Assembly (NCBI GenBank): GCA_003599365.1
Contig: QZJR01000048.1
Location: 1-37,322, forward strand
Origin: Deltaproteobacteria bacterium
GTDB lineage: Bacteria > Desulfobacterota > UBA8473
DNA length: 37,322 nucleotides
Direction of reading: 5' to 3'
Under the pieces are notes generated by a model. That model did not search any database. It saw only the letters and a program-made list of their open reading frames with translations, and had not been told where the DNA came from. Position 1 is the stretch's first letter. Every line of letters starts with the position of its first letter. The translations under genes were made by a program, and so were the position numbers. Shown here in pieces: positions 820 to 14,943 of the stretch.

Positions 820-2601
820 TTATAGTAAGGGGCTTTTTGGCAGGTTAAAGATAAATCTTGACCCTTTTCCAGCTTCACTCTCGGCTCGTACTTTGCCGCC
901 ATGGGTCTCTATGATATGTTTAACTATGGATAGACCCAGACCGGTTCCGCCCAACTCCCTGGATCTGGCTTTATCTACTCTGTAAAAACGTTCAAAGATC
1001 CGGGGAATATCTTTGGGGGGAATCCCGATCCCGGTATCGGCTACTTCTACTTGGACGCCATCATCTTTTTCAAAGGCGGAAACAGTTACCTCTCCGTTAT
1101 TAGGGGTATATTTTACCGCATTGTCAAGGAGGTTTTCCATGACTGTCTCTATTCTTTCTTTATCAGCCAAAACATGGGGTAAAACAGAAGGTATATTCAT
1201 CTTGATCTTTTGCCCTTTCTGATCTGCTATCTCCCTGAAGTTAGAAATTACCCTGGATACTACATCCACCAAATTTACAGGCTTGAGGTTGTTAGCTTCT
1301 GTCTTTCCACTTTCAATTTGAGAGAGATTCAGAAGGTCGGTAATGAGTCGATTGAGCCTTTCAGTGTGTTTCTCAATTATTTCAAGAAACCTGAGACTTT
1401 TTTCCGGATCACTGACAGCCCCGTTTCTTAAGGTCTCTACAAAGCCTTTGATAGAGGTAAGGGGGGTGCGCAGTTCATGGGATACATTGGCCACGAATTC
1501 CTTCCTTACCCTCTCAAGGTCCCTGATCTGAGTAATATCATGGAAAACCGCTACCATTGCCCATGGGGTACCTCCTTCGCCTGGGATAGCTGCCGTCTGG
1601 ACACGCAATATCCTTTCCCCTCCATAGTGGAGGATAATTTCTTCCATTTTTTGAGCCCCAGTCTCCAGAACCTCCTGAAAGAGGGGATTCAAGCGAGTAT
1701 GGCGGATTACCTCCCAGTGAAATCTGCCCAATGCCCTGCCGGGGGGGATATTAAGTATCTCCTCGGCTGCTGAGTTGATAAGTATGACCCGTCGGTCCTG
1801 GTTAATGGCTATTACCCCCTCAATCATCCCGCTCAGTATTGCCTGCCTTTCGCGTATCTGTTTCGTTAGGGTCTCAATCTTATTTTGAAGCTCAATGCTC
1901 ATTGTGTTGAAAGAGCGGGCAAGATCCCCTATCTCATCCTTTGAGTCTGTCCTTATCAGTTCTGAAAAATCCCCTCTTGCCATTTTTCGGGCCGCCATGG
2001 TCATCTGGATGAGAGGTTTGCCCATCCTTCTGGCTAAGATAAACCCTATGCCGAGAGAGAGCAGGGCAGCAATGATAGCTCCCCAAACAATCACTTCATA
2101 GATATGTCCCCCCATTTTTTCTACCTTACTCAGAGGAAGGGAAACCCTGACCGCTCCTATAATTCGATATTTAATTTCAACAGGCAAGGCAAGATACATC
2201 ATCTCCGTTTTCAAGGTTTCACTATACCGAATGCTTTTGCCAACCTTTCCTCTTAATGCCTCTCTTATTTCGGGCCTATCCAGATGATTCCCCATTTTTG
2301 TAGGGTCTTTTTCAGAATCTCCCAGCACAGTCCCTCCACTGTCTACAATTGTAGCCCTCATGTGGATTTTACTGCCCAGTCTCTTGGTAAGAAAATCGAT
2401 AGTATCACTTTTTCCATCAATAAGTTCTTTAGCCACTATATCTCTGATCAGAGTAGCATTGGTAGTAAGTTGAGGGACTAATTGTTCGAGATAATGCTCT
2501 TTAAGGGATATCCCGGCGTATATGCCGATAGTTAATAAAGAGATGATTATAAGGGAGGTTTGTGTTAAAAAGAGTTTCCATACTATTTTGAGGTTTGACA
2601 T
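820..2601 (-). CDS. phoR: PhoR-type membrane sensor histidine kinase
   Basis: This 593-residue kinase is the sensor partner of the adjacent PhoB. In order: TM helix about 8-31, a periplasmic domain of about 130 residues, TM helix about 169-190, HAMP about 190-243, a PAS domain about 250-360, HisKA with phospho-acceptor His375 in VSHELRTP, and a HATPase domain with N-box NLLDNAVKYTP, G1 box DTGIGIP and G2 box GTGLGLS. The periplasmic domain is larger than in E. coli PhoR, which has almost none, and resembles the PhoR form of Gram-positives and deltaproteobacteria. The gene starts 14 nt after phoB, so the two are cotranscribed. In the family the kinase is held inactive by PstSCAB and PhoU when phosphate is plentiful. 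Confidence 0.9.
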   Translation of the reverse strand: MSNLKIVWKLFLTQTSLIIISLLTIGIYAGISLKEHYLEQLVPQLTTNATLIRDIVAKELIDGKSDTIDFLTKRLGSKIHMRATIVDSGGTVLGDSEKDPTKMGNHLDRPEIREALRGKVGKSIRYSETLKTEMMYLALPVEIKYRIIGAVRVSLPLSKVEKMGGHIYEVIVWGAIIAALLSLGIGFILARRMGKPLIQMTMAARKMARGDFSELIRTDSKDEIGDLARSFNTMSIELQNKIETLTKQIRERQAILSGMIEGVIAINQDRRVILINSAAEEILNIPPGRALGRFHWEVIRHTRLNPLFQEVLETGAQKMEEIILHYGGERILRVQTAAIPGEGGTPWAMVAVFHDITQIRDLERVRKEFVANVSHELRTPLTSIKGFVETLRNGAVSDPEKSLRFLEIIEKHTERLNRLITDLLNLSQIESGKTEANNLKPVNLVDVVSRVISNFREIADQKGQKIKMNIPSVLPHVLADKERIETVMENLLDNAVKYTPNNGEVTVSAFEKDDGVQVEVADTGIGIPPKDIPRIFERFYRVDKARSRELGGTGLGLSIVKHIIETHGGKVRAESEAGKGSRFIFNLPKSPLL

Positions 2602-2615
2602 ATTCCTTTACTGAT

Positions 2616-3320
2616 TCAGGCTCTTTCTTCAACGACATCAGCCTGGAACATATAACCTATACCTCTTCTGGTGATAATACAGGAAGAAGCTTCCTTCAAT
2701 TTCATCCGAAGCCTTCTTATATGAACATCCACTGTCCTGTCGGTCACAAAGGCTTCATCCCCCAAAACTCCATCCAGGATTTGTTGTCGTGTCATAACCA
2801 GTCCTTGCCTTTGAACCAAGAAGAATAATAATTTAAATTCGGTAGGCGTTAGGTCAAGGAAGCTACCCTTCCACGTAACCCTATAGTTAGTTGAATCTAC
2901 TTCCATGTTGCCAAATACGAGTTTTTCCTTGAGGTCTCTGTGCCTGGAACCCCTCCTTATGACCGCTTTTACTCTTGCTACCAACTCCCTTGTGCTGAAG
3001 GGTTTTGTAATATAGTCATCTGCACCAAGCTCCAATCCAACAACAATATCCGGTTCCCCCGTTTTCGCTGTCAGCATGATGACGGGGATATGATTTGTCT
3101 TAGGCTCCTTTTTAAGGACTCGGCAGACCTCGAGACCGTCCATTCCGGGAAGCATTAAATCCAAGATAAATAAATCAGGAGGTTCTCTTTTAGCCAGTCT
3201 CAGGGCATCTTCTCCATTGTATGCAGAGCTTACCCGGAAACCCTCCATCTCCAGATTATACTTTATCAGTTCAATGATGTCTCGCTCGTCATCCACTACG
3301 AGGATTTTTTCTTTAGCCAT
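2616..3320 (-). CDS. phoB: PhoB-type phosphate response regulator (OmpR/PhoB family)
   Basis: The protein has an N-terminal receiver domain and a C-terminal winged-helix DNA-binding domain, and should activate Pho-box promoters such as the three found upstream. With the start at MAKEKILVVDDE, acidic residues D10-D11, phospho-acceptor D54 (in LFILDLMLPG), T84 and K106 (TKPF) are all present. The DNA-binding part runs from about 130 to the end with the typical DLTPTEFKLL and TVDVHIRRLR segments. The ORF track starts eight codons earlier at 3344. I chose 3320 because the family begins right before the first strand; neither start has a convincing ribosome site, and TAGGG lies directly against the upstream ATG. 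It precedes phoR by 14 nt. Confidence 0.9.
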   Translation of the reverse strand: MAKEKILVVDDERDIIELIKYNLEMEGFRVSSAYNGEDALRLAKREPPDLFILDLMLPGMDGLEVCRVLKKEPKTNHIPVIMLTAKTGEPDIVVGLELGADDYITKPFSTRELVARVKAVIRRGSRHRDLKEKLVFGNMEVDSTNYRVTWKGSFLDLTPTEFKLLFFLVQRQGLVMTRQQILDGVLGDEAFVTDRTVDVHIRRLRMKLKEASSCIITRRGIGYMFQADVVEERA

Positions 3321-3394
3321 AACGTTATTTATATCAACTACCATCCCTACTTGTCGGGATGGCTTGAGGGTTCAAGGGGTCACATGATCAAGGG

Positions 3395-3559: not shown

Positions 3560-4234
3560 TTATTTAGGATCCTCCTTTGTATAACCCCCGTGTCTTATAT
3601 CCCTGGCTTCAACCATGTAGATAATACTTTCTGCAATATTGGTGGCAAGGTCACCGATCCTTTCTAAATATTTGGAGATCTGGATTATCCTGACAGCCCT
3701 TGTTATGGTGTGCGGGTCTTCCATCATAAATGTCAACAGTTCTCGCAGTATCTGGTCATCCAGGTCATCTATTATCTGGTCGTTGTGGCACACCTTGAAT
3801 GCCAGGGCCGTATCCTCATTAATAAATGCATCCAGCGCTTCTTTTAGCATCGTTTGAGCTGCCCTTGCCATTCTTGGAATATCAATATACGGTTTTAGTG
3901 GGGGCTCTTTATTTAACTCGAGTGCCCTTTCAGAAATATTAACAGCATGGTCTCCAATCCTCTCAAGGGATGCAATTATCTTTACACTCTTTATAATAAA
4001 CCTTAAGTCTCGTGCCATGGGCTGTCTCAGGGCTAAAAGTCTGACGGCCTTTTCCTCCAGTTTCACCTCCAGTTGGTCGATCTGACAGTCACACTCAATG
4101 GTTCTTCTTGCCAGATCAGAATTCCGCTCAACCAGAGATTTCACTGCATTGGCAATGGCTTCTTCAACCAGAGTACCCATCTTCAGTAAATTTTCCCTTA
4201 AATCCTGCAATTCTTTCTCAAATTGTCTTTCCAT
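3560..4234 (-). CDS. phoU: PhoU, phosphate uptake and signalling regulator
   Basis: This 224-residue all-helical protein has the two PhoU repeats (PF01895). Each carries the metal/contact signature: ERIGDHAVNISERA in the first half and ERIGDLATNIAESI in the second. PhoU links the Pst transporter to PhoR in the cytoplasm and is needed to switch the Pho response off. Length is normal for the family (about 215-240). It lies downstream of pstB but separated by 231 bp, most of it occupied by repeat copy B, so pst-phoU readthrough may be altered compared with a normal tight operon. The pstSCAB-phoU-phoBR order supports the assignment. Confidence 0.95.
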   Translation of the reverse strand: MERQFEKELQDLRENLLKMGTLVEEAIANAVKSLVERNSDLARRTIECDCQIDQLEVKLEEKAVRLLALRQPMARDLRFIIKSVKIIASLERIGDHAVNISERALELNKEPPLKPYIDIPRMARAAQTMLKEALDAFINEDTALAFKVCHNDQIIDDLDDQILRELLTFMMEDPHTITRAVRIIQISKYLERIGDLATNIAESIIYMVEARDIRHGGYTKEDPK

Positions 4235-4465: not shown

Positions 4466-5230
4466 TTATCCAAACCTTCCTGTAATATAGTCCTCTGTCA
4501 TCTTGTCGGATGGGGCAGTAAATATTTTTTGGGTTGTATCAAACTCAATCAACTTTCCCATCATGAAAAATCCTGTATATTCCGATACCCTGGCTGCCTG
4601 CTGCATATTATGGGTTACGATAATAACAGTATATCGCTTCGTTAGTTCTGTTATCAGGTCCTCTATCTTCGCGGTAGCAATGGGGTCAAGGGCTGAACAG
4701 GGCTCATCCATCAGGATGACCTCCGGCTCCACGGCTATCGCCCTGGCAATACATAGCCTTTGCTGTTGACCGCCGGAAAGGGAGAGGGCGAATTTATTTA
4801 AGATGTCCGCGGTCTCTTCCCACAGAGCGGCATCTTTGAGAGCCCTTTCAACCCTTTCGGCAATTTCAGTTTTCTTTTTTATGCCCATAAGCTTAAGACC
4901 GAATGCAATGTTCTCAAAGATTGACATGGGAAAGGGTGTAGGTTTTTGGAAGACCATGCCAACCTTGCTCCTTAATCCTATATGGTCTATATCATTGTCA
5001 AGGATATTATCATCATCCATCCATATCTCGCCCTCATATCGGTTGCCCGGATAAAGGTCGTGCATCCTGTTCAGACAACGGAGGAAGGTAGTCTTTCCAC
5101 AACCTGAAGGACCGATAAGGGCTGTAACGGTATTTTTGTACATAGAAAATGAGATATCCTTCAATACGTGTAAGGCACCTGAGTAATAAAAATTAAGTCT
5201 TCTTACCTCTATCTTAATATTATCATTCAT
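4466..5230 (-). CDS. pstB: PstB, phosphate ABC transporter ATPase
   Basis: The 254-residue ATPase powers the high-affinity phosphate importer at the inner membrane. Walker A is GPSGCGKTT at 40-48, the signature LSGGQQQRL starts at 151, Walker B VILMDEP at 171-177, and the switch His is in [10 protein letters not shown]. The motif [10 protein letters not shown] is characteristic of PstB. The start codon overlaps the pstA stop by 4 nt (ATGA type), showing translational coupling. Length is normal for the family. Confidence 0.97.
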
Positions 5231-6084
5231 ATCGTTGGTCTCTTACCGTACCTCCATCTGAGTATAAATCTGCCCAGGACCGTGAGTACCAGGATAAATA
5301 CAGTTATCATAAGTGATGCTGCCCATGCCTGGCTATGCCAGCTACTGTATGGTCCCATAGCATACTGAAAGATCGTTACTGTAAGGGATGAAACAGGCCC
5401 ATTCATATTTGCCGAGAAGAATGAGTTATTAAAGGATGTAAAGAGTAACGGAGCTGTCTCCCCCACCACCCTGGCTATTGAGAGGAGTATTCCTGTAAGT
5501 ATCCCTGCTGCCGCAGCCCTGTAAACTACATGAATAATTACCTTGTAGTATGGGGCGCCAAGGGCAAAGGCAGCCTCTCTTAGTGTCCATGGCACAAGAG
5601 ACAGCATGTCTTCCGTTGTCCTTAAGACAACGGGAATCATTATGATTGCCAGCGCCACCGCCCCTGCCCACCCGCTAAAATGCCCCACAGGCTTAACCAG
5701 AACCGCATAGATAAATGTGCCGATCACTATGGAAGGGACGCTGACCATTATATCGGATAACACACTTATTACCCTCGCAATCTTTCTTCCCCGGGCATAC
5801 TCTGCAAGGAACGTCCCTCCCAAAACCCCTACTGGAACCCCTATCAGGGTGGCAAAGGACGTTATGATCAGATGACCTACAAAGGCATTTCTTAAGCCAC
5901 CGCCTTCAATGCCGGGCGGGACAGGGTCATTGGTAAACAGACTTGGATTAAGAGCTCCTATCCCATGGATAAGAACATCCCCAAGGATAAAGATGAGCCA
6001 GAAGAGACCAAAGAAGGCAGCCAGGGTGCAAAAGGCGAGGGCTATAAGACTCTTCAGTTTTCTGACCTGCTCTATGGTCATCAT
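5227..6084 (-). CDS. pstA: PstA, phosphate ABC transporter permease
   Basis: This is one of the two membrane subunits of the phosphate importer, 285 residues with about six TM helices. It carries the BPD_transp_1 permease domain with the ATPase-contact loop [22 protein letters not shown]. The first TM segment is near residues 14-38 and the last near 255-275. It overlaps pstB and pstC by 4 nt on both sides, so the three genes are translated as a coupled set. Family and order leave little doubt about which permease it is. Confidence 0.95.
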
Positions 6085-7013
6085 GGATACTTCCTTTCAG
6101 CCTTGAGTATAAAAAACTTCGCCAGTGCCAGAATTATAAAGCTCATCAAAAAGAGGAGGAGTGCCAGATAAAAGAGGGATGATAGATATATGTCTGTATC
6201 TGCCTCGGTAAATTCATTTGCCAGGGTTACGGTTATGGTTGCCGCAGCATCGAAAAGGGATGAAGTTATCTGGTGATTGTTGCCGAGAACGAACGCAACC
6301 GCCATGGTTTCGCCAAGCGCCCTTCCAAGAGAAAGGACAATTCCGCCAAAGACACCGAGCTTGGAATAGGGGAGCACAATGCTCCTTACTACTTCCCATT
6401 TTGTTGCGCCAAGCGCGTAGGCAGATTCTTTTATTACAGCGGGTGTAAGGTTAAATGCGTCTCTTGATATACTGGCAGTGAATGGAATAATCATGATACT
6501 CAGAATGACGCTCGCTGTCAAGAGGTCTATACCCATCGGTGTACCTTCAAATAGCATCCCAACAAGGGGGAGACTCCCAATGCTCTTCTGGAGGGCCGGC
6601 TCTATATAGTTGGCCATTATGGGTGCAAGGGTAAATAGTCCCCACATTCCATAGATGATGCTCGGTATAGCCGCCAGCAGTTCTATGGCAGCGCCAATTG
6701 GTCCTTTGAGGAAGTTTGGCGCTATTTCGGTTACAAATATGGCAATACCGATCGCCACAGGCACAGCTATTAATATGGACAATACTGTTGTTATCGCTGT
6801 TCCGAAGAGATTAGTCGCTGCCCCGAATGACTCTTTTACCGGGTTCCAGTCCGTTGAAGAAATAAATCCCCATAAACCAAACTTCTCTATAGAGAGGGAT
6901 GACTCAGAGATTAATGTAAAGAGAATACCAACTATCAATGCGATGACCGACAGGGATGCAAGGCCGGAGACAAGCAAAAAGATTAAGTCAACAGGGTTCT
7001 TTTTATGACGCAT
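6081..7013 (-). CDS. pstC: PstC, phosphate ABC transporter permease
   Basis: This is the partner permease of PstA, 310 residues with about six TM helices. The loop KESAYALGATKWEVVRSIVLPY is the EAA motif that docks onto PstB, and LGRALGETMAVAFVLGN is typical of PstC. It follows pstS after 124 nt and overlaps pstA by 4 nt. The pstS-pstC gap contains a hairpin with a T-run on the minus strand, so less pstCAB than pstS message is expected. Confidence 0.95.
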   Translation of the reverse strand: MRHKKNPVDLIFLLVSGLASLSVIALIVGILFTLISESSLSIEKFGLWGFISSTDWNPVKESFGAATNLFGTAITTVLSILIAVPVAIGIAIFVTEIAPNFLKGPIGAAIELLAAIPSIIYGMWGLFTLAPIMANYIEPALQKSIGSLPLVGMLFEGTPMGIDLLTASVILSIMIIPFTASISRDAFNLTPAVIKESAYALGATKWEVVRSIVLPYSKLGVFGGIVLSLGRALGETMAVAFVLGNNHQITSSLFDAAATITVTLANEFTEADTDIYLSSLFYLALLLFLMSFIILALAKFFILKAERKYP

Positions 7014-7137: not shown

Positions 7138-8151
7138 CTAATAAATGTTGTAGGACTTCCAGTATGCCCTTACTTTGTTCTTCAACGATACAGGAAGAGG
7201 AATATATACGAGTTCCTCGGCTGTTTTGTCCCCTTTTTCGAATGCCCACTCATAGAACTTAACCACATTGATATTCGACCCTTTCTTCTCCTTTGCAAGG
7301 AGTATAAATGTTGCGCCTGCTATAGGCCATGCCTTCTTGCCAGGGGCATTGTTTAGCCAGAGATAGAAGTCTTTCTTCGGGTCAAAATCACCCGAATCCG
7401 CTGCCGCTTTGAAACTGTTAAAGGATGGTTCAACAAATTGGCCTGCGGAATTTTTCAGGATCGTATGTGCAAGGCTATTCTGTTTTGCATAGGCGAATTC
7501 AACGTACCCTATGGAATAGTCAAGCCTCTTTACATAGTTTGCCACACCCTCATTGCCCTTGCCTCCAATACCAACAGGCCACTTTACAGAGGTTCCTGCA
7601 CCGACCTTTTCTTTCCAATCGGAAGATATAACGCTCAGGTAATCGGTAAATATTGCAGTCGTACCTGACCCGTCAGATCTGTGAACAACGGTAATCTCTT
7701 TATGAGGAAGTGCTTTACCAGGATTTATTTGCTTTATCTTCTCATTATCCCAGTAGTTTATCTCCCCAAGATATATCATGGAGAGTATATCCGAATCAAG
7801 CCTCAGTTCGCCTGCTTTTATACCACGAATGTTAACCACAGGGACAACCCCTCCAATAACAGCAGGAAATTGGATTAGATTGTTTTTCTTGAGTTCCTCC
7901 GGTTTAAGAGGCGCATCAGAGGCTCCAAAATCCACGGTTTTGTTTACAATCTGCCTTATCCCCCCGCCTGAACCTATAGACTGATAGTTGAGTTTTACCC
8001 CGCTAACCTTGTTATACTCATATGCCCATGCAGAATACACAGGATAGGGGAATGTTGCCCCGGCACCATTAATAGTATTACCAGCAAATGAACTGCCAAA
8101 GGCCAAAAAACTAATTGCCAATCCAATAAAAACAGATATTATCTTATTCAT
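7138..8151 (-). CDS. pstS: PstS, periplasmic phosphate-binding protein
   Basis: The protein captures phosphate in the periplasm and delivers it to PstCA. From the ATG at 8151 it is 337 residues with a signal peptide (MNKIISVFIGLAISFLAFGS, cleavage near SFAGN). Typical PstS blocks follow: NGAGATFPYPVYSAW, YQSIGSGGGIRQI, FGASDAPL and VHRSDGSGTTAIFTDYL, all phosphate-contact loops. The ORF track starts 19 codons upstream, but GGAGGA eight nt before 8151 and the signal peptide fix the start. A Pho box with a -10 hexamer lies 30-85 nt upstream. A hairpin with a T-run follows the gene. Confidence 0.96.
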   Translation of the reverse strand: MNKIISVFIGLAISFLAFGSSFAGNTINGAGATFPYPVYSAWAYEYNKVSGVKLNYQSIGSGGGIRQIVNKTVDFGASDAPLKPEELKKNNLIQFPAVIGGVVPVVNIRGIKAGELRLDSDILSMIYLGEINYWDNEKIKQINPGKALPHKEITVVHRSDGSGTTAIFTDYLSVISSDWKEKVGAGTSVKWPVGIGGKGNEGVANYVKRLDYSIGYVEFAYAKQNSLAHTILKNSAGQFVEPSFNSFKAAADSGDFDPKKDFYLWLNNAPGKKAWPIAGATFILLAKEKKGSNINVVKFYEWAFEKGDKTAEELVYIPLPVSLKNKVRAYWKSYNIY

Positions 8152-8181: not shown

Positions 8182-8235
8182 CTTATACCAGACAAATGTT
8201 ACAGTCATGTTACGATTGTATTAAGTTTTGGTTAC
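8182..8235 (-). promoter_or_regulatory. Pho box array and promoter of pstS
   Basis: On the minus strand four half-sites GTAAC, TTAAT, GTAAC, GTAAC start every 11 bp (plus-strand positions 8231, 8220, 8209, 8198), and the proximal one reads ACTGTAAC, close to the E. coli Pho half-site CTGTMAY. A -10 hexamer TATAAG (8187-8182) follows after exactly 10 nt, the spacing expected when PhoB replaces the -35 contact. The start of transcription would be near 8175, leaving a leader of about 24 nt. The distal half-site overlaps the stop codon of the small ORF upstream. Confidence 0.75.
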
Positions 8236-8432
8236 GATCCCATCGAGATTCCCCCTCCTTTTCTTTGTATCCTCATGAGCATCCTTCTGAGAAGTTCCTC
8301 TCTGGCTTTCAGATTCCCATCGTTTACCAGATGAATTAGACTCACTTCGGGCAGGGAAGTGTATACTCTATGTCTTCCCTGTCCGAATTCCATCTTACCC
8401 TCTGTAAGCCTTTTTCTTACCGACTTCTTCAT
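8232..8432 (-). CDS. Small basic protein of unknown function, between porin and pstS
   Basis: This 66-residue ORF has AGGAAG six nt before its ATG and sits in line between the porin (51 nt upstream) and pstS. It is strongly basic (KKSVRKR at the N-terminus, RRMLMRIQRKGG near the C-terminus) with a predicted amphipathic helix around residues 33-55 (LVNDGNLKAREELLRRMLMRI). No signal peptide or TM segment is seen. The stop codon lies inside the distal Pho half-site of pstS. I do not recognise the family. If real, it would be cotranscribed with the porin and is a candidate Pho-regulon accessory protein. It could also be a chance ORF. Confidence 0.5.
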   Translation of the reverse strand: MKKSVRKRLTEGKMEFGQGRHRVYTSLPEVSLIHLVNDGNLKAREELLRRMLMRIQRKGGGISMGS

Positions 8433-8483
8433 GATACGCTTCCTGACTAAACCGGCCGTGAAAGAGAAGGAAATACCTTTCGC

Positions 8484-9755
8484 CTAGAACTTAAGCTGGA
8501 AACCGACTTGATATTGATTGTAATCAACTGAGCTTGCCGTCTGAACTTCATAATTTCTATTTTCATAAGCGGTAAAAAGCATGAACTCTTTGGACAAGTC
8601 ATAAGACAGGCCGCCAACATAGGTTTCGTATTTATTGCCACTGATGTCCGTATTGGGATCATAGTCATAATACTTGCCAAACAGGCGAAGTTTCTCCAGA
8701 CCAGGGATACGCACAAATGCCTCTGCCAGGTACCCTTCGCGTTTATTTTGCTCGGATGACGTATGGGTACCCTTGCCCCAGTAGTACTGTCCCATGATGG
8801 TAAACATTTTGTGCTGTAAAGAGGCCTGAGCAATATTCATCTCCCAGTCGGGATAATCATTGGTATTCCCGGTAGCGAATTTTGTATTGGCCTTCCCGTA
8901 CGTACCCGTGTAAGCCAACTGAAATCCTTCTAGCACCGGAACAGTGGGAAGGGGACGTAAATAGACCACGCCGGAAACGACCTTGTTATTGTTGGCCTCC
9001 GAATTTGAATATCCGGCGCCGTTAAAAATACCGACTACATATCCGCCCCATTTGCCTGCAAAAGGCTTGGCTGCAAACTTGAGGTATTCGTCGTCCATGT
9101 AACCGCCAAACGTCCCCTGGTTGGAAATGCCGAAATCCGCCGAAGACTGGACCCCCGTTTCGTCAAGCAGATGTTTGCCCTGGACACGGTATGGCCAGAT
9201 AGCTGAATCGTAAGCATCTGAAGGAGTGGGGATCAAACCGGCAAGCGTCGTCGTTTCCAGCAGTTTGATATTAGCGTAGGCATTTTTCAAACGGACTTCC
9301 CATCCATTCCCTTTATCGTTTGCGTCTTTTGATGTAAAAATATCCGTGGTTACATTCGCTCCAAGCCAGTCATTTACGTCTTTTGTTAACGTCAGATAGG
9401 CCCGATTCAAGACAAACTGATTTGTGGACACACCGTTGTCTTTATCTTGTTCATTCCACTCCGCAAAAATCGTAGTGCCAAGCTTAAAACCTTTCAGCGC
9501 CGGAGGCAAAAACCCCCCTTTTGCGGCTGACTTGAGGATATCTTCTTTTATCTCCGTTCGTTCCTTCTGACTGTTGGTAGTGGCTTCCTTCAATAGATCA
9601 TACGCTTCCTGCTGGGTAACAATGTTTTTATTCTTCAGCAGATTGATCAGATCTACTACATCGGCCTCAGCAGCCCAGAGCGAAGATGCCAGGAATACCC
9701 AAACCAGCAGGCTACCAAGAATAGATATCAAAACCCTTTTTTTATCTCTAACCAT
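8484..9755 (-). CDS. OprP/OprO-like outer-membrane porin
   Basis: The 423-residue protein has a signal peptide (LISILGSLLVWVFLASSLWAAEA), a short N-terminal helical segment about 30-70 with DLINLLKNKNIVTQQEAYDLL, then alternating amphipathic beta strands ending in the C-terminal Phe needed for barrel assembly (YQVGFQLKF). The segment GTTIFAEWNEQD and following strands resemble the phosphate-selective porin O/P family. It is placed in the pst cluster downstream of a Pho box, so phosphate uptake across the outer membrane is the likely role. Which anion it selects is not proven; the Arg ladder and Lys cluster of OprP cannot be verified by eye. Confidence 0.85.
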   Translation of the reverse strand: MVRDKKRVLISILGSLLVWVFLASSLWAAEADVVDLINLLKNKNIVTQQEAYDLLKEATTNSQKERTEIKEDILKSAAKGGFLPPALKGFKLGTTIFAEWNEQDKDNGVSTNQFVLNRAYLTLTKDVNDWLGANVTTDIFTSKDANDKGNGWEVRLKNAYANIKLLETTTLAGLIPTPSDAYDSAIWPYRVQGKHLLDETGVQSSADFGISNQGTFGGYMDDEYLKFAAKPFAGKWGGYVVGIFNGAGYSNSEANNNKVVSGVVYLRPLPTVPVLEGFQLAYTGTYGKANTKFATGNTNDYPDWEMNIAQASLQHKMFTIMGQYYWGKGTHTSSEQNKREGYLAEAFVRIPGLEKLRLFGKYYDYDPNTDISGNKYETYVGGLSYDLSKEFMLFTAYENRNYEVQTASSVDYNQYQVGFQLKF

Positions 9756-9955
9756 CTCTATCTCCTTTCTTTCTCTTTTTAATTGGTGTGTCTTCGCTGT
9801 ATGCTGATAAACGCTTTGTTAATAATTAACTCCTCCATTTCATATTAAATTTATAGATAGTCTGTTTTTTTAATTGCAACTTGCAAAGTCTGTCAGTTTT
9901 CCTCTGTTCCACATCCCCCCTTCCTATTTGCTTGATTTGCGGGATAGTCTGTGGT

Positions 9956-10252
9956 AAAAAAGAGAAGGCATACGACAAGGGACAACAGCCCCGCAGGTAT
10001 GTCGCCGGGCTATCAGGTTTGATGCTTGCAGGCTCCCTGATAGCCTTTTTATTACCTCGAAACCCCACGTTTGTGTATATAATCGCTGCAGATCAGCAGC
10101 AAGACAGGAGGTGAACTTGCTGCTGATTGTGAGGCATGGGCGCCGGGTGTTAGCGCCGAATAACCTGCGGATATTCACCCGCAACGATTGTTTACATAAA
10201 TCAAACTACTGTTAAAGTGATTGATATAAATAGAGCAACCTTAAAAACTTAT
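9956..10252 (-). ncRNA. Candidate Pho-controlled structured leader or small RNA
   Basis: The 561-bp gap between the MBL gene and the porin starts with a Pho box whose predicted start of transcription is near 10252. Downstream on the minus strand lie several hairpins: a 5-bp stem at 10166-10183, a 5-bp stem at 10139-10157, a perfect 12-bp stem at 10092-10127, a 10-bp stem at 10008-10045, and an imperfect stem at 9967-10006 followed by TTCTC and six T. The 12-bp hairpin would present UUCACCUCCUGU, an anti-Shine-Dalgarno sequence, in its loop. The RNA could end at the T-run or read on as a ~500-nt porin leader. Extent and function are inferred. Confidence 0.3.
10008..10050 (+). terminator. Intrinsic-terminator-like hairpin on the plus strand
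   Basis: GGCTATCAGG (10008-10017) and CCTGATAGCC (10036-10045) form a perfect 10-bp stem with an 18-nt loop, followed by five T on the plus strand. No plus-strand gene upstream of it is recognised, so it either ends an antisense transcript or is simply one arm of the structured region read from the other strand. Confidence 0.45.
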
Positions 10253-10258
10253 GTCGTT

Positions 10259-10312
10259 AGATTACCTCAGTTTTATTACAGTTTGATTACTCTTAGGTTA
10301 AGATTCGATTAA
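10259..10312 (-). promoter_or_regulatory. Pho box array upstream of the porin leader
   Basis: On the minus strand four half-sites TTAAT, TTAAC, GTAAT, GTAAT start every 11 bp (plus-strand positions 10308, 10297, 10286, 10275); the proximal one reads ACTGTAAT. Exactly 10 nt downstream is TAATCT (10264-10259), a weak -10. The layout equals that of the pstS and STAS-gene boxes base for base in spacing. The nearest gene it can serve on this strand is the porin, about 500 nt further on. Confidence 0.65.
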
Positions 10313-10316
10313 AATG

Positions 10317-11039
10317 CTAAGAACCTTCCCGAAAATGGGTAACCTCTACTCCTTCCTCATCCTTTAAAAGTGCCCTTGCGTTTAGAATGGCTCTTTTCAT
10401 ATCCTCTTCCGGGGTCTTTGAGACTTCCCCGTGTCCTGGATAGAGCTCGGTTATCTTCCTTGTCTCCAGAAGGCTGATAGAATTGATATAATCACCGACA
10501 CTGCCGGACTCACCAATGTAAGAGAGAGTCCCCCCCGCAAAGAGAGTATCCCCGGTAAAAAGGATCTTCCGGGTAAACTCATAGATGCAGATTGAACCGG
10601 AACTATGACCAGGGGTGTGCACCACTTCCAGACTGTAGTTTCCCAGATCAAAACGAAACCTGTTTTCCAACCAGAGGTGGACTTTAAGGGATGGCTCGTT
10701 AATGTCCCCCGACTTATACATGGTAACGTACCTGTCTTCTACGGTGATCTTAGTAGCAGCAAAGCGATGGGCAGCAATTAAGGCATAATCCTGAAAATAG
10801 CGATTCGCTCCGATATGATCGAAGTGTTCATGGGTATTGATCACTATGTCAATGTCTCTGACCTTAAATCCCAATCTTAGCAAGGCCTCTTGCAATCTGG
10901 AGAAGTTTTTGTCTACCCCGGAATCAATAAGGACATTTTTATAATCACCCCTGATAAGATAGCTATGGCTGCTGGTGCCCTCTCCCTTAAGCCAAAAGAT
11001 GTTGGGGTGCATTTCCTCGATATGGTTATCTTCAGACAC
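10317..11039 (-). CDS. Metallo-beta-lactamase-fold hydrolase, translationally coupled to the STAS gene
   Basis: The protein has the dinuclear metal motif of the MBL fold: NTHEHFDHIG, then a His in HTPGHSSGS, Asp in LFTGDTLFAGG, and the final His in YPGHGE. This is the glyoxalase II-like branch of hydrolases acting on esters or thioesters; the substrate is unknown. The ORF track starts at 11081, but that ATG has no ribosome site. A GTG at 11039 has GGAGG four nt upstream and overlaps the STAS stop by 8 nt, so I prefer it (240 residues). An ATG at 11012 is another option. A Pho box ahead of the pair suggests induction in phosphate starvation. Confidence 0.8.
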   Translation of the reverse strand: MSEDNHIEEMHPNIFWLKGEGTSSHSYLIRGDYKNVLIDSGVDKNFSRLQEALLRLGFKVRDIDIVINTHEHFDHIGANRYFQDYALIAAHRFAATKITVEDRYVTMYKSGDINEPSLKVHLWLENRFRFDLGNYSLEVVHTPGHSSGSICIYEFTRKILFTGDTLFAGGTLSYIGESGSVGDYINSISLLETRKITELYPGHGEVSKTPEEDMKRAILNARALLKDEEGVEVTHFREGS

Positions 11040-11379
11040 AACCCCTCCATTCACTCTTTTTGGCCATTTCTCTATTTTCATAGATCCGAAAGATATGATC
11101 CAGACGATTTTGCCTTATATAGTTCATTATCTCCGGTTTCAAGGAGCATAACTTCAACCCCCCTTTTAAGAGGTTGACCTCTTTTCTGATACTATTGAGA
11201 AATCCCATTAGAGTTGGTTCAAACTTTTCCAATTCCTTCATGTCCATAATCACCTTAATGCCTTTTTCCTTGAGATAGGGAGAGAGCCCCCCCTTTGCCA
11301 TGACGGCTTCATTCTTTCTGGTCTTACCTGATACCTTTATGAGACAGAAACCACCTTCTTCAACAATGTGATATTTCAC
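11032..11379 (-). CDS. STAS-domain-like protein
   Basis: This 115-residue protein has the outline of a STAS/anti-anti-sigma domain: an N-terminal beta pair (FCLIKVSGKTRKNEA), the central strand IKVIMDMKELEKFEP, a helix with FLNSIRKEV, and a C-terminal KLCSLKPEIMNYIRQNRLDHIFRIYENRE, the usual LDxIFxIY ending of the fold. Such domains act as phospho-switch partners or small-molecule sensors in the cytoplasm. The usual phospho-acceptor Ser/Thr is not evident after the central strand (MDMKELEKFEPTLMG), so phosphorylation is doubtful. Its stop overlaps the start of the MBL gene. A Pho box lies 48-101 nt upstream. Confidence 0.7.
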   Translation of the reverse strand: MKYHIVEEGGFCLIKVSGKTRKNEAVMAKGGLSPYLKEKGIKVIMDMKELEKFEPTLMGFLNSIRKEVNLLKGGLKLCSLKPEIMNYIRQNRLDHIFRIYENREMAKKSEWRGCV

Positions 11380-11426
11380 TTCCTTACAAATCCTCCTTTG
11401 TATACTTTTTCTTAATGCTGACTTTA

Positions 11427-11480
11427 TTAATAACAGACTCTTGTTACGGTATGATTACAAATGGGTTAAGGTTTGATGAA
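11427..11480 (-). promoter_or_regulatory. Pho box array and promoter of the STAS-MBL operon
   Basis: On the minus strand half-sites TTCAT (degenerate), TTAAC, GTAAT, GTAAC start every 11 bp (plus-strand positions 11476, 11465, 11454, 11443). A -10 hexamer TATTAA (11432-11427) follows after exactly 10 nt. Transcription would begin near 11420, about 40 nt before the STAS start. Spacing is identical to the other two arrays. Confidence 0.65.
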
Positions 11481-13028: not shown

Positions 13029-14249
13029 TCAGTCGGATTTCCTCCATTCAGTCAATGGGATAAACTTTCCGGTGGTTGGATCGGACTTGAATATCTTCCA
13101 TGTATTTCCCCCTTTATGACTGGTGGCACTATAACTGAGAGGACCGCAGAGTCCGTCTGTATCAAAGTTCTTTATGCTCTCCATGGCTTTTATAAACCCT
13201 TCCCTGTCCAGATCTTTACCTGCCTTCTTAAGTATCTCTACCATCACCCTTGCCCCTACCCAGCCATGGGTATATATCTTTCCACGATAGGGTTTTTCAG
13301 TGCCAGGGAAATATTTCAGGGTTACCTCCCTCATCTCTGCGGCACCAGGACAATCATCATACCAGGACATCATGTGGTTAACTGCGTAAAACCGTTTTGC
13401 AGAGTCGCCTGCCATGTTCAGGACTTCCTCAGCACATGTGGCCCAACTCCCAAAGACAGGAACATTTAACCCATATTTTTTTAACTCCCTAAGTAGAACC
13501 ACTGTTGGCTGGGGGATTTGCCCGCAGAGAATGATGTAATTTACATTTGCTTTTTTCAAATTCATCACCTGTGAGCTGGCATCAAGGGAACCCGGATTTA
13601 GAACATCCTTAGAAGCAGGAGCAAGATTATGAAATTCAAGTCTCTTCATCGCCGATTTAAGGTCAACCTTCCCTGTTTCATTGTCAGGATAAACCAGCGC
13701 AAACCTTGGTTCCTTAGGTTTCAGATCATTCAGTATATAATCTATAAGGATATTCATCTGGTTGGGATATATGTCCCCAAAGATGAAGACATATTTTTTG
13801 AATGGCTTTACTGTTATTTCAGGCATTATTGCAGACATAAGAGGGATTTTCTCCTTTTCTGCATGTCTACTAAGTACAGTAACACCTCCCGTTGATGTTG
13901 GTCCAATTAGGGCAAAGACATTATCTTTAAAAATTAGTTTCTTAAAAGCAGTTATAGCCAGCGGAATAGAGTAACGGTCATCCTCAACCAGTGCATCAAT
14001 CTTTCTGCCGTTAATTCCTCCCTGTTCATTTATATACTTGAAGTAAGTTTTTATACCCTGAGTTGTGGGAACGACTACATTGGCAGAAGGCCCTGTTTGG
14101 TCCAGGATCAAACCTATCTTTATACTACTATCGGTGACCCCAGGAATATCTTTGGCATGTATAAATGTTTTGTCAACAATAACACTAACTAAGGTGATGA
14201 AACAGACAGTAATTAGCTTACAATGTGTCGAAGACAATCCTACTCTCAT
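13029..14249 (-). CDS. Periplasmic substrate-binding protein, LivK/branched-chain amino acid type
   Basis: This 406-residue protein belongs to the Peripla_BP_6 family that feeds HAAT-type ABC importers. It has an N-terminal signal segment (CKLITVCFITLVSVIV), then SSIKIGLILDQTGPSANV, the sugar/amino-acid lobe, GPTSTGGVTVLSRHAEKEKIPLMSA and a C-terminal half with SWYDDCPGAAEMREVTLKYF. Length is normal for the family. AGGAGG seven nt before the ATG supports the start. No permease or ATPase of a Liv system is in the window, so the partner lies elsewhere. The ligand cannot be told; amino acids or aromatic/short-chain acids are possible. A decayed paralogue lies 113 bp upstream. Confidence 0.9.
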   Translation of the reverse strand: MRVGLSSTHCKLITVCFITLVSVIVDKTFIHAKDIPGVTDSSIKIGLILDQTGPSANVVVPTTQGIKTYFKYINEQGGINGRKIDALVEDDRYSIPLAITAFKKLIFKDNVFALIGPTSTGGVTVLSRHAEKEKIPLMSAIMPEITVKPFKKYVFIFGDIYPNQMNILIDYILNDLKPKEPRFALVYPDNETGKVDLKSAMKRLEFHNLAPASKDVLNPGSLDASSQVMNLKKANVNYIILCGQIPQPTVVLLRELKKYGLNVPVFGSWATCAEEVLNMAGDSAKRFYAVNHMMSWYDDCPGAAEMREVTLKYFPGTEKPYRGKIYTHGWVGARVMVEILKKAGKDLDREGFIKAMESIKNFDTDGLCGPLSYSATSHKGGNTWKIFKSDPTTGKFIPLTEWRKSD

Positions 14250-14285
14250 ACTTTATCCTCCTTTTATTGTTTAAAATTTGGGGTT

Positions 14286-14329
14286 ATGAAAGGGTTTGTC
14301 CCAGTGTGTATTGGGACAAACCCTTTCAT
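14286..14329. repeat. 17-bp perfect palindrome between the two binding-protein genes
   Basis: ATGAAAGGGTTTGTCCC (14286-14302) and its exact complement (14313-14329) enclose a 10-nt loop. This is the longest perfect inverted repeat seen in the window. There is no T-run on either side, though the RNA hairpin would be very stable and could act as an mRNA 3-prime end or as an attenuator in front of the intact gene. Confidence 0.7.
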
Positions 14330-14361
14330 TTGGCTAATCTGATACTAGCTTAAAACTTAAC

Positions 14362-14943
14362 TCAGTGAGCTGGTTTTATCCAGTCAGTAACAGGAATGAG
14401 TTTATTGTTTTCTACATCGGCTTTATACATCCTCAGGTACTCCCCACCCATGCGCTCATTGGAGCCGTATGTTATATAACCGCTCACCCCTCCTGTATCA
14501 AAGTTTTTAAAGGTTTCCAGGGCTGCTACCAGGGATTCGCTATCAAGGTTTCTGCCGGCCCTTTTCATTCCTTCCTCCAGGATCATGGCACAGAGCCAAC
14601 CTTTGGAATAATTCTTGGTATAGTCCTTTTTCTTGGGACTCAGTTTCAGGGTGATTTCCCTCAGTTTTGCCATACCCGGTGTGTCATCATACCAGGAACT
14701 GTAGGCATGGACTCCTCCCTGGTCATTTATATATCGCACATAATTTCTAAAACCTTCAACAGCTGCCAGCCAGGTAGTAGCTATAGGGCCTGTCATATCT
14801 GGAATCACTCCTATCTTAACCATATCGTTCGTTACCCCTCTCACTTCCTCGGCAGGGGTAGCAGTTGGTTTCATTAAAAATACGGAAACCATTAAACCGA
14901 TAAACAACAATAGATAAACCTTGCGTAATCCTTTTCTCTTTAT
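14362..14943 (-). pseudogene. Decayed LivK-type binding protein: internal deletion and lost start codon
   Basis: The frame is homologous to the intact binding protein downstream but lacks its middle. YINDQGGV (paralogue residues 72-79) is joined directly to HAYSSWYDDTPGMAKLREITLK (paralogue from about 291), an in-frame loss of about 210 of about 400 residues that removes most of the binding lobes. The start also looks damaged: a basic signal-peptide n-region (KRKGLRK) is open back to codon ATA at 14943, which stands four nt after GGAGG where ATG is expected. The ORF track begins at TTG 14910, which would lose the n-region. The ends are well conserved, so the decay is recent, or the short product has some use. 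Confidence 0.75.

Follow-up and report, generated by a model that had tools for sequence, protein, structure and literature searches.

The window analyzed here (the whole 37,322-nt stretch of DNA) belongs to an assembly of 1,917,122 bases (~1.9 Mb) that is 74% complete, and its host is a groundwater sulfate-reducer-like bacterium. Three arrays of short repeats lie on the minus strand of the window. Array 1 is followed by pstS, pstC-pstA-pstB, phoU, phoB, and phoR, and array 3 by a STAS gene that overlaps a metallo-beta-lactamase-fold (MBL) hydrolase gene by 50 nt. Array 2 starts directly past the MBL stop codon, 504 nt ahead of the start of a porin-like gene. The initial annotation had placed each array on the strand of its genes, and the gene layout agrees for all three. 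The genes and the leader region are as follows:

820-2601, minus strand: phoR-type sensor kinase (PnpS equivalog over cutoff; PhoR TIGR02966 just under cutoff)
2616-3344, minus strand: phoB, OmpR-family response regulator (Response_reg and Trans_reg_C domains), the presumed reader of the arrays
3560-4234, minus strand: phoU (NCBIfam TIGR02135)
4466-7013, minus strand: pstC, pstA, and pstB (PstB equivalog over cutoff; pstC and pstA by gene order and ORFs)
7138-8151, minus strand: pstS, start at 8151 (NCBIfam PstS equivalog, score over cutoff)
8484-9755, minus strand: porin-like protein of the outer membrane, 423 residues, encoded in the array 2 unit
9895-10075, minus strand: conserved noncoding block in the leader (10259-9755) that links array 2 to the porin-like gene (four-genome alignment)
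10317-11081, minus strand: MBL-fold hydrolase, second gene of the array 3 operon (Pfam PF00753)
11032-11379, minus strand: STAS-domain protein, first gene of the array 3 operon (Pfam PF01740)

An alternative, longer pstS ORF starts at 8208, within array 1. The porin-like protein found no match in a Pfam search and weakly resembled other Pho-associated porin-like proteins. Elsewhere in the window (13029-14910), two adjoining periplasmic-binding-protein-like ORFs were seen, the second of which (14362-14910) seems shortened internally.

As the initial annotation had described, with correct coordinates, strand, and sequences, each array spans 54 bp and holds four half-sites repeated every 11 bp, the last of them separated by 10 nt from a -10-like hexamer:

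8235-8182, minus strand: Pho-box array 1, pstS promoter, conserved in the related genomes G002 and G003
8235-8231, 8224-8220, 8213-8209, and 8202-8198, minus strand: array 1 half-sites GTAAC/TTAAT/GTAAC/GTAAC
8187-8182, minus strand: array 1 -10-like hexamer TATAAG
10312-10259, minus strand: Pho-box array 2, promoter of the leader/porin unit, its position after MBL kept in relatives
10312-10308, 10301-10297, 10290-10286, and 10279-10275, minus strand: array 2 half-sites TTAAT/TTAAC/GTAAT/GTAAT
10264-10259, minus strand: array 2 -10-like hexamer TAATCT
11480-11427, minus strand: Pho-box array 3, promoter of the STAS-MBL operon
11480-11476, 11469-11465, 11458-11454, and 11447-11443, minus strand: array 3 half-sites TTCAT/TTAAC/GTAAT/GTAAC
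11432-11427, minus strand: array 3 -10-like hexamer TATTAA

A single half-site deviates from KTAAY, the distal-most one of array 3 (TTCAT), and in all 23 arrays gathered from relatives the TA of the -10 falls at the fixed offset. The arrays thus have the general features of a Pho box, i.e., two or more direct repeats with an 11-bp period, placed ~10 nt upstream of a -10 element and replacing the -35 (definition in PMC1906773), upstream of phosphate-acquisition genes and a cognate phoB/phoR.

A search of the window for three phased KTAAY half-sites, allowing one mismatch or fewer, returned six occurrences, all within the three arrays, against a mean of 0.24 and a maximum of 2 in shuffled sequence. 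Exact three-half-site arrays occurred in these three places only within the whole 1,917,122-base genome, where the reversed exact pattern did not occur. With three mismatches, the four-half-site pattern did not discriminate (27 occurrences vs. 26 for the reversed control). The genome was also scanned with a sequence-only profile trained on 22 arrays from other genomes, the window's own arrays being left out. Results showed strong matches to array 3 (E = 2.2e-14), array 1 (E = 1.2e-13), and array 2 (E = 3.3e-12), with the next match at E = 0.84; since the profile targets full arrays, half-size boxes of two half-sites would escape it. Such a scan had been proposed in the initial annotation, which named randomly placed arrays as the contrary outcome. 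Placement was not random, with matches confined to phosphate promoters in this genome and concentrated before phosphate genes across the phylum.

Among the genomes of the same family that were searched, strong profile matches scored at least 37.8 bits and the remainder at most 14.4 bits, leaving a wide gap. G002, G003, and G006 had three strong matches each, and G004, listed as 100% complete, had one, upstream of pstS. In the window genome, G002, G003, and G006, the full arrays all shared a single contig, where they spanned a few kilobases. From these one to three strong matches per genome, we predict that this family has very few full arrays, clustered at one locus. In 198 phylum genomes, 55 profile matches reached E <= 1e-3; they came from 26 genomes, and 42 lay outside the family (at least 4 of these 42 belonged to the training set). 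Of 29 proteins tested downstream of profile matches, 13 were PstS-type (PBP_like_2), two PstC-type (DUF3708), two PsiE, one a purple acid phosphatase, and two clear porins, giving 20 phosphate-related or porin genes; the others were mixed or unmatched. An untrained, symmetric pattern (four KTAAY at 11 bp, 10 nt, then TA) matched 48 times in 395 phylum genomes, compared to twice for the reversed pattern, and 8 of the 10 downstream proteins tested were PstS, alkaline phosphatase, phosphonate-binding protein, or Porin_O_P. Matches of the all-TTAA type likewise lay upstream of alkaline phosphatase, PstS, and phosphonate-binding genes. The suggestion that this Pho box is genome-specific was therefore rejected by the scans of relatives and phylum, which found the same arrays in many Desulfobacterota families; kindred motifs have also been published for D. 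vulgaris and cyanobacteria. Judged by its sequence, the motif is a regional spelling of the known Pho box, common to many relatives. MAG contigs can be misbinned, and a contig binned as Thermodesulfovibrionia DeMMO2_3 (L049; JAGVGM010000012.1) serves as an example: its MBL, STAS, porin, and pstS genes are 100% identical to those of the window, and it is likely a misbinned contig or the product of a shared sample.

Since the arrays are unique in the genome and phylum matches outside the family mostly precede genes for PstS, PstC, PsiE, phosphatases, and porins, we consider them to be Pho boxes. We predict with high confidence that each array combines a PhoB operator with a sigma70-type promoter and would switch on its unit (pst, porin-like, or STAS-MBL) in response to phosphate starvation. 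The local PhoB had its best NCBIfam match to PhoB TIGR02154, at 259.6 bits, which is under the curated cutoff of 296.2, so its identity as PhoB rests on operon context. Alignment to E. coli PhoB, through which the DNA-contact residues were compared, showed the recognition-helix stretch DRTVDVHIRRLR to be identical. In the literature, PhoB repeats lie 10 bp ahead of the -10 (PMC1906773), PhoB is described as binding head-to-tail (PMC4415409), and polymerase recruitment is supported as the mode of activation at pstS (PMC10294691). Given the E. coli geometry, this published mechanism, and the identical DRTVDVHIRRLR, we infer that the same mechanism operates at the window's arrays, including PhoB binding, activation, the dimer count, and the transcription starts. 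Upon phosphate starvation, PhoR would phosphorylate PhoB, both being encoded at the array locus, and PhoB-P would bind the four 11-bp repeats head-to-tail, probably as two dimers on one face of the DNA; two dimers per promoter are consistent with the four half-sites. The proximal repeat would stand in for the -35 element, so that bound PhoB would recruit sigma70 RNA polymerase to the -10 located 10 nt downstream. As a result, pstSCAB-phoU-phoB-phoR (phosphate uptake) would be turned on, with positive autoregulation, as would the porin-like gene and the STAS-MBL operon.

The porin unit invites a different assignment for array 2. Its leader block (CCNGCAAGCATCAAAC ... AATCAAGCAnAnAGGAAGGG) is conserved in four genomes from two families; of 395 phylum genomes, only these 4 carried the block's signature, with one copy in each. 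An apparently shortened version was also seen ahead of pstS in G006 (L048, near 18990). The ~500-nt leader that includes the block matched no riboswitch or known RNA family in an Rfam search, and folding gave weak z-scores (-1.24 and -0.57), with no strong conserved fold of the leader shown among just four sequences, three of which are close. The block could possibly be a leader RNA or a small RNA. In the latter case, array 2 would be a real Pho box that mainly drives the small RNA instead of the distant porin, as might be expected from the 504 nt between them and from a conserved block that stands before mostly non-homologous porin-type genes in the four genomes. However, a porin-type gene follows the block in 4/4 genomes, no terminator was demonstrated on the sense strand ahead of the porin, and neither the folding scores nor the Rfam search speak for such an RNA; we consider this assignment rather unlikely. 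It may also be asked whether PhoB is the protein that binds the arrays. OmpR-family regulators share a direct-repeat geometry, and a different member with an 11-bp direct-repeat site might bind the arrays, leaving their proximity to phosphate genes secondary. The sub-cutoff score of the local regulator would allow for this, but the arrays recur before PstS, PstC, PsiE, alkaline/purple acid phosphatase, and phosphonate-binding genes in many families and phoB-phoR sits within the pst operon, rendering another regulator highly improbable. Accidental phasing of GTAA/TTAA words, on the premise that they are common in the genome, was rejected with near certainty, even though KTAAY is short and AT-rich and the three-mismatch pattern was no commoner than its reversed control, by the exact-pattern scan (arrays confined to phosphate promoters, none in the reversed control), E-values of about 1e-12 to 1e-14 from a model untrained on this genome, the window shuffles, the 395-genome control, and conservation of the arrays in relatives.

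Beneath the predicted PhoB operators, genes appear to have been exchanged while the promoters were conserved. The pstS of G003 (L047:7429-8436) is only 26% identical over 112 residues to that of the window, yet the array 1 above it is nearly the same; which porin-type gene follows array 2 also varies from genome to genome. The STAS-MBL operon bears an array in many Desulfobacterota loci and is therefore a predicted Pho-regulon operon. In G006 (L048, 18541-19030), the STAS gene is apparently broken by a repeat-like insertion, and the Pho array is intact.

The order of half-site types within the arrays was also examined. In the 23 arrays from relatives, the first letter of half-sites 1-4 was T in 18, 16, 1, and 2 arrays and G in 5, 6, 22, and 21, respectively. 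Among matches to the untrained pattern, 12 of 13 informative families were richer in G in their proximal pair of half-sites than in their distal pair (sign test, P = 0.003), and four families had no G at all; since these counts include related sequences and a few chance matches, they are suggestive of a polarity of distal TTAAY and proximal GTAAY in the pattern-match families. It is conceivable, although we hold it with some doubt, that the Desulfobacterota PhoB operator is itself polar, with a distal dimer site of TTAAY and a proximal one of GTAAY, in which case one PhoB would read both half-site types, always in the same order. If so, the first-loaded and the polymerase-contacting dimers would differ in affinity, setting the threshold of the response, and the polar order poses a testable question on the loading of tandem PhoB dimers.

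We found little in the literature on the phosphate regulons of Desulfobacterota apart from Desulfovibrio. For uncultured Desulfobacterota, the present analysis yields a Pho-box profile that has been tested and can be carried to other genomes. In the window genome's family, it predicts that the full-array regulon is very small (one to three promoters), and the predicted Pho regulon gains a conserved STAS/MBL-hydrolase operon. Modestly new are the half-site polarity, the one to three clustered full arrays per genome in the family, STAS-MBL as a Pho member, the non-homologous genes beneath conserved promoters, and the conserved noncoding leader before the porin.

The four-repeat, 10-nt architecture is already known from E. 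coli pstS. There, as in the window, four direct half-sites at 11 bp are followed by a -10 (TATTTT in E. coli) 10 nt past the last one, and the box directly precedes pstS (43 bp ahead of the CDS in E. coli). The E. coli half-sites are of the CTGTCAT type, whereas those of the window read TGTAAY proximally and YTTAAY distally. The departure from CTGTCAT noted in the initial annotation thus holds, the central TCA reading TAA except in TTCAT (array 3), and the half-sites differ at the central C despite a recognition helix identical to that of E. coli PhoB. D. vulgaris PhoB (DVU1083) recognizes repeats of (c/t)GT(n)AC separated by a 4-bp spacer, as verified by gel shift (PMC3333781; PMC6456213). 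The 11-bp period is shared, and the window's proximal half-sites TGTAAC/CGTAAC fit this consensus; taken per half-site, GTAAC fits, whereas distal TTAAY and GTAAT do not. The D. vulgaris motif also differs in being reported with two half-sites and with many more targets. Cyanobacterial SphR binds three or more copies of the 8-bp repeat CTTAACCT, joined by 3-bp linkers and hence of the same 11-bp period (PMC1906773). The window's distal half-sites (CTTAACC) match this SphR box, whereas the proximal half-sites carry G for its second T.
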